Assembly: GCA_003695765.1 (NCBI GenBank)
Contig: RFHQ01000164.1
Location: 1 to 34,643 of the forward strand
Reading direction: 5' to 3'
From: Gammaproteobacteria bacterium
GTDB taxonomy: Bacteria; Pseudomonadota; Gammaproteobacteria; Steroidobacterales; GCA-2729495
DNA length: 34,643 nucleotides
Each line of letters begins with the position of its first letter. The stretch's first letter is position 1. Positions 3,845 through 27,728 of the stretch are shown in pieces. Under the pieces are notes generated by a model. That model saw only the letters and a list, made by a program, of their open reading frames with translations. It was not told the DNA's origin and searched no databases. Both the position numbers and the translations under genes were made by a program.

Positions 3845-4217
3845 GGAGCCGGCCAGGCAGTCGCTCGCCGCATGGCGGCGGGAGGAAAGTCCGGGCTCCG
3901 GCGGACAGGGTGCCAGGTAACGCCTGGGGGGCGCGAGCCCACGGAAAGTGCCACAGAAAACAGACCGCCGGCGCCGCTGTGCGGCGCAGGCAAGGGTGAA
4001 AAGGTGCGGTAAGAGCGCACCGCGCGGGTGGTAACACGCCGCGGCACGGTAAACCCCACCCGGAGCAAGACCAAATAGGGGAGCAGGCGACGGGCGCGAG
4101 CCCGGCGCACCGGTGTCCGCCCGGGCTCCCGGGTAGGTCGCAAGAGGCCGCCGGCGACGGTGGTCCCAGATGAATGGCTGCCCCCGACAGAACCCGGCTT
4201 ATCGGCCGGCTCCATTT
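3845..4217 (+). ncRNA. rnpB: RNase P RNA, bacterial class A (M1 RNA)
   Basis: The catalytic RNA subunit of RNase P, which matures tRNA 5' ends. Hallmarks seen: GAGGAAAGTCCGGGCTCC (3892-3909), the GCCAGGTAACGCCTGG segment, GTAAGAGCGCACCG, CACCCGGAGCAAGACC, AAATAGGG and the closing ACAGAACCCGGCTTATCGG. P1 is a perfect ten-pair helix between GGAGCCGGCC (3845-3854) and GGCCGGCTCC (4204-4213), which fixes both ends to within a few bases. Position between rsmI and mraZ is common in gammaproteobacteria. Open reading frames across it on either strand are not genes. Confidence 0.97.
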
Positions 4218-23154: not shown

Positions 23155-23463
23155 TCAGGCGGCGCCGCCGACCCGGACGAGGACCCGCGTCGCGCCCGGG
23201 TACTGGCGGCGGCAGGCCGCGAGCAGCCGGCTGCTCTCGAAGCGCAACCGTGTCGCCCATTCCGGCGAGTCGGCCAGCACCACGAGGCTGCCGTCCTCGC
23301 GCAGGTTTGCGCCGCGCAGATGGGCCGCCAGCGCCGGCTCGATGCTGCTGCGCAAATGCTCGCCCAGCGCCAGCCGCCCGGCCGCGGCCGCCGCCAGACG
23401 CTCGATCGCGCCGCCGCGCTTGGTCACCAGATCGGACAAGGACTTGGGGCCGGATTTTGACAT
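23155..23463 (-). CDS. dciA: DciA-type helicase loader (DUF721)
   Basis: A 102-residue protein of the DUF721/DciA family. Known role: DciA helps load or activate the replicative helicase DnaB in bacteria lacking DnaC-type loaders. The family core is the GSLVVLADSPEWATRLRFES stretch (58-77), preceded by a helical N-terminal half. It is convergent with lpxC (12 bases apart) and divergent from the riboswitch-led peptidase gene; the lpxC-dciA-M23-secA order is known in Pseudomonas. There is no clear Shine-Dalgarno before the ATG, and the bases just upstream are TATT. Confidence 0.85.
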   Translation of the reverse strand: MSKSGPKSLSDLVTKRGGAIERLAAAAAGRLALGEHLRSSIEPALAAHLRGANLREDGSLVVLADSPEWATRLRFESSRLLAACRRQYPGATRVLVRVGGAA

Positions 23464-23502: not shown

Positions 23503-23531
23503 TTGAGTTGGTTCAGGGGCTTCGGCATAGT
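23503..23531 (+). promoter_or_regulatory. Candidate promoter of the riboswitch transcript
   Basis: TTGAGT (23503-23508), 17 bases, CATAGT (23526-23531). A start seven bases later, near 23538, puts the first transcribed bases at the 5' side of the c-di-GMP aptamer. Confidence 0.6.
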
Positions 23532-23534
23532 CTA

Positions 23535-23616
23535 GCCGCGCCAGGGCAAACCTGTCGAAAGGCAGGGACGCAAAGCCACCGGTCTACGGGCGAGGCCCAC
23601 GACAGCGGGGTTGCTG
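23535..23616 (+). ncRNA. Cyclic di-GMP-I (GEMM-I) riboswitch aptamer
   Basis: The conserved core is unmistakable: AGGGCAAACC (23543-23552); a six-pair helix CCTGTC/GGCAGG (23551-23556/23561-23566) capped by the GAAA tetraloop; GACGCAAAGCC (23567-23577) with the intercalating A; a second helix with GTC/GAC and GGGC/GCCC pairs (23582-23603); and AGCGGGGTTGC (23604-23614). The guanine matching G20 of the Vibrio Vc2 aptamer is G (23545), as in c-di-GMP binders and not the A of cGAMP-type variants. It lies in the leader of the M23 peptidase gene. P1 is not obvious; CCGCG (23536-23540) with CGCGG (23624-23628) is one option. Confidence 0.9.
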
Positions 23617-23679
23617 AATGAATCGCGGAGGGAGATGCCGGGCGGGGAAATCACCGGAGCCGGCTGCAGCGAAGAACAA

Positions 23680-23733
23680 CCGGGCAGGAGCCCGCCGGCG
23701 AGCCGTTGCCGCCCGCGGCGCGAGCCTGCCCGG
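23680..23733 (+). promoter_or_regulatory. Likely expression-platform stem of the riboswitch
   Basis: CCGGGCAGG (23680-23688) and CCTGCCCGG (23725-23733) are perfect nine-base inverted repeats around a GC-rich 36-base loop. The stem ends five bases before the GGGGG ribosome site of the peptidase gene. With no T-run it would act on translation or through Rho, not as an intrinsic terminator. How it couples to the aptamer is not visible. Confidence 0.45.
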
Positions 23734-23751
23734 ATGCAGGGGGCAGCAGAC

Positions 23752-24678
23752 ATGCATCTGATCCTCTTCAGTCGCCGGCGCGGTGCGCGCCAGTACCGTT
23801 TTTCCGGCGGCCTGCTGGCCGGTGCCGGCGCTCTGGTTCTCGCCGTTGCCGGCGCCGGTTTCGCCGGTGGCTACTGGTTCGGCGGCGGGCAGGCGGCTCA
23901 GGCGCCGATCGAGGAGATCGCCGCACTGAAGCAGGAACTGGCCGGTTACCGCGCCACCGTTGCCGAATTGCGCGAGAATGCCCGCGAGAACCTCGACGCG
24001 CTGGCGCTCAGGGTCGGCGAGCTGAATGCCAGCGTGATCCGGCTGAATGCGCTGGGCCGCCGGCTGACGGACATGGCCGAGCTCGACGACGGCGAGTTCG
24101 ATTTCGACAATCCACCGGCACTCGGCGGCGGCCCGGAACTGCCGGCCTATGCCAGTGTGACCGGCCAGGTGACCGACCTGGTCCGTGAGATCGAGGGGCT
24201 GGACGAGTCCCTGTACGCCCAGCAGCAGCAGCTCGCGGTCCTCGAGGGCCTGCTGCTGAACCGCAAGCTGCGCGCCAAGGTCTTTCCGCACGGACGGCCG
24301 GTGCGCTCCGGCTGGATGTCCAGCCCATTCGGCAAGCGCACGGACCCGTTCACCGGCAAGCCCGGCTGGCATCGGGGCGTGGATTTCGCCGGTAAGCGCG
24401 GCTCCGAAGTCGTCGCCGTCGCCGACGGCGTCGTCACCTGGTCCGGCGACCGCTACGGTTACGGCAAGATGGTGGAGATCCGCCACGGCAATGGCTACGT
24501 GACGCGTTACGCCCACAACGAGGAAAACCTGGTCGCGGTCGGCGACCAGGTCCGCCAGGGGCAGACGATCGCGCGCATGGGCTCGTCCGGCCGCTCGACC
24601 GGCCCGCATCTGCATTTCGAGGTCTGGCACCTCGGCCGGCCGGTGGACCCGCGGCGTTATATCCGCCAGACCTCCTGA
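23752..24678 (+). CDS. M23 (LytM-type) peptidoglycan endopeptidase, membrane-anchored
   Basis: A 308-residue protein: cytoplasmic basic start, one transmembrane helix (about 20-43), a periplasmic coiled-coil stretch (about 52-165) and a C-terminal LytM domain. The zinc site is complete: H207 and D211 (HRGVD) and H286-x-H288 (HLHFE), so it should be an active hydrolase, unlike degenerate EnvC/NlpD activators. The start is ATG 23752 (MHLILFSRRRG), with GGGGG eight bases before it; the frame is open to a TTG at 23611, but that part covers riboswitch leader and reads as non-coding. Probable job: wall cleavage during growth or around envelope machines, under c-di-GMP control. The same gene precedes secA in Pseudomonas. 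Confidence 0.92.
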   Translation: MHLILFSRRRGARQYRFSGGLLAGAGALVLAVAGAGFAGGYWFGGGQAAQAPIEEIAALKQELAGYRATVAELRENARENLDALALRVGELNASVIRLNALGRRLTDMAELDDGEFDFDNPPALGGGPELPAYASVTGQVTDLVREIEGLDESLYAQQQQLAVLEGLLLNRKLRAKVFPHGRPVRSGWMSSPFGKRTDPFTGKPGWHRGVDFAGKRGSEVVAVADGVVTWSGDRYGYGKMVEIRHGNGYVTRYAHNEENLVAVGDQVRQGQTIARMGSSGRSTGPHLHFEVWHLGRPVDPRRYIRQTS

Positions 24679-24713
24679 CGGCGGCCGCTGGCCACGCGCC
24701 GGCTGCAATCCCT

Positions 24714-24760
24714 TACAATAGCGGGCTTTGCGGCCAGCGCCGGTCGGGTTGACCCGGCGC
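24714..24760 (+). promoter_or_regulatory. secA promoter -10 and leader hairpin
   Basis: TACAAT (24714-24719) is a good -10 box, but no clear -35 lies at the right distance. Downstream, GCGCCGG (24737-24743) and CCGGCGC (24754-24760) form a seven-pair stem with a ten-base loop in the predicted leader. No SecM-like arrest peptide gene is present, so any secretion-responsive control must work differently from E. coli. Confidence 0.5.

Positions 24761-24794: not shown

Positions 24795-27728
<2,934 letters not shown>

Follow-up and report, generated by a model that had tools for sequence, protein, structure and literature searches.

The Vc2 riboswitch of Vibrio cholerae, which belongs to the c-di-GMP-I (GEMM-I) class (Rfam RF01051), has been described as a translational OFF switch (PMC9262584). 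The Geobacter pilM riboswitch is also a GEMM-I RNA, which responds to cGAMP and acts as a transcriptional ON switch (PMC9262584). A cell-wall peptidase is known to be controlled by a riboswitch in Corynebacterium, where the ligand is c-di-AMP (PMC9960051). The locus analysed here lies in a 34,643-nt stretch of gammaproteobacterial DNA (hereafter the window) and can be compared with each of these systems. Like Vc2, it contains a full-length match to the RF01051 model with G20, A47 and C92 (Vc2 numbering), placed in a 5' leader with an envelope-related gene downstream. Its target, however, is a secA-linked M23 peptidase gene and, whereas Vc2 is a translational OFF switch (PMC9262584), no expression platform was found in the window. 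The aptamer architecture is the same as in the Geobacter pilM switch, and the window's genome also carries an RF01051 aptamer before pilM, but the window switch has G20, lacks an intrinsic terminator and precedes another target gene. With the Corynebacterium system it shares the position of a cyclic-dinucleotide riboswitch ahead of a wall peptidase (PMC9960051), while ligand, RNA class and phylum are different.

Scanning both strands of the window with RF01051 placed the aptamer at positions 23535-23618 of the forward strand (model positions 1-87 of 87, 75.4 bits, E = 3e-13; the gathering score of the family is 35 bits). An earlier note, made from the sequence alone, had claimed a complete GEMM-I aptamer between a candidate promoter and the M23 gene and had proposed a covariance-model search with the Rfam c-di-GMP-I model; this full-length match bears out the claim. 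A search of the whole 2.57-Mb genome gave six RF01051 matches, this aptamer among them (E = 5e-15), and the aptamer's top family within the clan is RF01051 and not the c-di-GMP-I-GGC variant RF03167, which is the best-scoring family for some relatives (L173, L055, L162, L218 and L044). By our own mapping, G20, A47 and C92 of Vc2 correspond to model positions 11, 38 and 83; the equivalent bases in the window are G (23545), A (23572) and C (23614), and the G reported earlier at the G20 equivalent is indeed present.

The scan model used to find aptamers in relatives and for counting covarying pairs (R1) was built from 31 RF01051 matches of the window's genome and its relatives, some of which are themselves M23 aptamers. 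Among 100 M23-leader aptamers, 162 doubly changed cells were counted over the R1 pairs, which include a three-pair helix (columns 11-13 with 126-128) at odds with the Rfam structure, versus 54 for shuffled and no more than 30 for slid controls; the aptamer fold is therefore supported. The window RNA is a genuine member of the known c-di-GMP-I class.

The aptamer is preceded on the forward strand by a sigma-70-like promoter (23503-23531) composed of TTGAGT (23503-23508), a 17-nt spacer and CATAGT (23526-23531). The candidate promoter had been proposed at exactly these hexamers, and the same pattern recurs in relatives: among 99 leaders, a promoter score of at least 10 was obtained for 80% versus 5% of shuffles, and the -10 element reads CATAGT or CATATT in 79 of the 99. 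As the -10 element ends 2-7 nt ahead of the aptamer in 97/99 leaders, the aptamer should start at about +1. In the window this distance is 3 nt, and the position at which the conserved promoter stops indicates that the M23 mRNA starts with the aptamer. The RNA thus occupies a cis-regulatory location, inside the M23 5' leader and with a promoter upstream.

The downstream gene (23752-24678, forward strand) encodes a 308-aa M23 peptidase (PF01551, 124.8 bits) with an N-terminal hydrophobic segment (residues 21-39), a middle region and a C-terminal LytM domain. Its zinc and active-site motifs are complete, as the earlier note had stated: HxxxD at 207-211 (H207/D211), YAH at 253-255 and HLH (HxH) at 286-288 (H286/H288). 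The closest solved structures are those of the M23 proteins 3slu and 6muk. It resembles MepM and other M23 (LytM) endopeptidases in its catalytic domain with complete HxxxD and HxH motifs; however, it falls under every NCBIfam equivalog cut-off, and even with the nearest, MepM (NF008652), it scores 103.7 bits versus a cut-off of 341 in an alignment limited to the catalytic domain, and is not classed as MepM. The protein is probably a membrane-anchored periplasmic wall hydrolase. The locus is flanked on one side by lpxC and the divergent dciA (23155-23463, reverse strand; PF05258, 44.6 bits), and on the other by secA (24795-27728, forward strand; SecA domains) and a NUDIX gene. Elsewhere, the window contains a class A RNase P RNA (3845-4217, 299 bits).

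The gap between dciA and the M23 gene, whose survey in relatives had been suggested, was compared across 142 orthologous M23 loci of the window's order (mostly uncultivated Gammaproteobacteria); genomes with only a partial best M23 match, e.g. genus g8 of family f1, were left out. The R1 scan found an aptamer just upstream of M23, on the same strand, at 101/142 loci and in 10 of 14 families: f1 (the window's family) 25/31, f2 5/5, f3 1/1, f4 3/4, f6 8/13, f7 33/34, f8 1/1, f10 5/5, f11 13/31 and f12 7/7. None was found at the ten M23 loci of families f5, f9, f15 and f16 together. A recognisable aptamer is absent from 41/142 leaders of the order, which we count against our preferred explanation. 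Rfam's own models recovered the aptamer in all 29 matching loci that were re-scanned, in agreement with R1. Outside the order, within the same class, there was no M23 aptamer at any of 88 loci (best score 14 bits), while RF01051 occurs somewhere in the genome in 35 of 185 class-wide sample genomes, two of the 35 being from the window's order. In a set of 80 named loci, 33 matches lay just upstream of M23, nearly all of them in MAGs and many in Woeseiaceae; none was detected at M23 in Luteibacter, Rhodanobacter, Halieaceae and other such loci of this set.

Based on these observations, we suggest that the M23 mRNA begins with a c-di-GMP-I riboswitch, which sets the output of the M23 gene with a predicted response to its ligand, and we regard this as very likely. 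Transcription would begin at the aptamer or no more than a few bases away from it, the emerging transcript would fold, and occupancy by c-di-GMP would alter the amount of M23 protein, the effect passing through a spacer that is 133 nt long in the window. As no intrinsic terminator was found on the forward strand of the scanned region, control would most likely be exerted on translation start or Rho access. As to its direction, the balance tips only slightly towards an ON switch. We infer ligand binding in vivo, hydrolase activity of the M23 protein and a link to pili. By such a switch c-di-GMP would set wall-cutting capacity alongside other surface targets such as pilM, and this pairing would tie a wall hydrolase to a bacterial lifestyle signal. 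The RNA class is already known; of its conserved target here, a secA-adjacent M23 peptidase, no description was found in the open papers searched. The locus offers a deeply conserved and directly testable connection between c-di-GMP and peptidoglycan hydrolysis in a mostly uncultivated order, and the aptamer losses behind an unchanged promoter, together with natural A20 variants (see below), provide ready-made comparisons.

Alternatively, M23 and secA might form one operon under the riboswitch, and c-di-GMP would then tune the Sec translocase together with the hydrolase. M23 adjoins secA in 121/121 loci where secA was found, with a gap usually of 80-300 nt, there is no forward-strand intrinsic terminator in the scanned region, and the M23 gene occupies the place of secM in E. 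coli, which we count in favour of joint control. However, comparison of the M23-secA gaps showed that a TAnAAT-plus-AGCGGGCTTTG-like motif is kept there. In the window it is represented by the conserved TTACAATAGCGGGCTTTG (24713-24730, forward strand), which probably comprises the -10 element and the start region of a promoter belonging to secA, and TAnAAT with a similar following sequence is found in most of 18 order-mates compared. This conservation suggests that secA is probably transcribed separately, from its own promoter, and that the riboswitch target would therefore be mainly the M23 gene; we consider joint control unlikely. The earlier description of a wall hydrolase within the dcw/sec region holds for its place next to secA, while control of secA, which has its own -10-like motif, should not be read into it.

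If the riboswitch acts on M23, as we prefer to think, its expression platform would be expected in the spacer between the aptamer and the start codon (23619-23751, forward strand, 133 nt; about 110-140 nt in most relatives). A Shine-Dalgarno (SD) sequence, AGGGGG (23738-23743, forward strand), stands 8 nt before the ATG at 23752, and the nine-pair stem to which the earlier note had drawn attention (23680-23733, forward strand) does exist, with the arms CCGGGCAGG (23680-23688) and CCTGCCCGG (23725-23733). Its perfect pairing and its end, 4 nt before AGGGGG, would suit a switch by which the ribosome site is masked or exposed. However, dinucleotide shuffling of the 133-nt spacer yields a repeat of this kind in 9% of cases, 7/80 relatives have one, the nine pairs form whether the aptamer is enforced, disfavoured or left unconstrained, and the SD remains outside them. 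With its occurrence at chance level, lack of conservation and folding independent of aptamer state, the stem was rejected as a regulatory switch, a role that seems very improbable; it is probably incidental.

The spacer of the window has no extra stability compared with shuffles of its 133 nt (z = -0.47). Ensembles were further compared for 81 leaders, with the aptamer either enforced or disfavoured by discouraging its 3' strand from intra-aptamer pairing, and no consistent aptamer-dependent change was predicted at the SD/AUG. Predicted SD accessibility was 0.435 with the aptamer enforced versus 0.416 with it disfavoured (p = 0.17), and on aptamer formation the SD opens in 17/81 leaders and closes in 9/81. 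Thus, neither the leader ensembles nor the spacer stability test nor the terminator scan identified an expression platform. RNAalifold analysis of 30 Woeseiaceae-type leaders predicted a common hairpin around GCAUCCGRGGCGUACUCGAUG at the SD/AUG, a purely local structure, with no pairing to the aptamer in these leaders; it is a possible platform element, and one confined to that family. The spacer is also spanned by a 47-codon ORF (23618-23761), out of frame with M23, which starts at the 3' end of the aptamer and ends in a stop codon overlapping the start of M23. This ORF has no visible ribosome site and is probably a chance product of high-GC DNA.

Several leaders without a full aptamer retain traces of what may have been one. 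Within the window's family, L048 and L051 keep the promoter followed by a short leader only, without a recognised aptamer, while in L038 and L041 the retained promoter is followed by a decayed aptamer of which a P2-like hairpin survives (L041, 13.5 bits); aptamer relics of 11-15 bits lie at the same spot in L042 and L191. Judged from these leaders, an ancestral aptamer seems to have been lost several times. It could then be asked if the window aptamer, too, is a decaying leftover that is now functionless, given that L038, L041, L042, L048 and L051 of the same family have decayed or missing aptamers and that the window has U at the C93 equivalent. Yet the decayed copies score below 16 bits, whereas the window aptamer scores 75.4 bits, with its helices intact and none of the three ligand-contact bases lost, which makes this explanation highly improbable.

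Among the 100 M23 aptamers, the C92 and A47 equivalents are invariant (100/100 each) and the G20 equivalent is kept in 92. The eight exceptions comprise one C and seven A, the latter in all five f10 genomes (L199:1305-1387, L198, L195, L193 and L190) and in two genomes of f11 (L229 and L230). The G20 position sets the specificity of cGAMP switches, and G20A is a specificity-changing form (PMC6274999). That the window switch answers another cyclic dinucleotide, e.g. 3',3'-cGAMP, can hardly be maintained, as the A20 carried by f10 relatives at this specificity position (PMC6274999) is opposed by G20 (23545) in the window itself. Binding of c-di-GMP may nevertheless persist in the natural A20 RNAs. 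In two f10 genomes, six aptamers at other loci, the one before pilM among them, have G20. One could speculate, though we doubt it, that the M23 switch is an ancestral, order-wide fixture and that in f10 the M23 copy alone changed to A20; if true, the f10 riboswitch would have changed its ligand, or lowered its affinity for c-di-GMP, at a single target within the regulon.

Another aptamer of the window's genome (L005, G000:C127:5402-5526) occupies the interval between pilM, whose product matches PilM_2 with 428 bits, and a divergently oriented gene for a class A penicillin-binding protein. Its place before pilM lends the pilus role suggested in the earlier note some indirect support. The remaining riboswitch targets in this genome are a thioredoxin-like protein and, to judge by visual inspection, an oxidoreductase and proteins that look extracellular. 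Taken together, and partly on this inspection by eye, the targets seem to correspond to the usual c-di-GMP surface regulon, and it is plausible that the M23 enzyme helps pili or secretion machines to pass through the wall. Aptamers of 85-130 nt were also seen ahead of pilM in L347, L349, L354 and L355, and the 4.7-Mb genome G042, of the Woeseiaceae-type family f7, carries 21 c-di-GMP-I aptamers, many of them 107-114 nt long.
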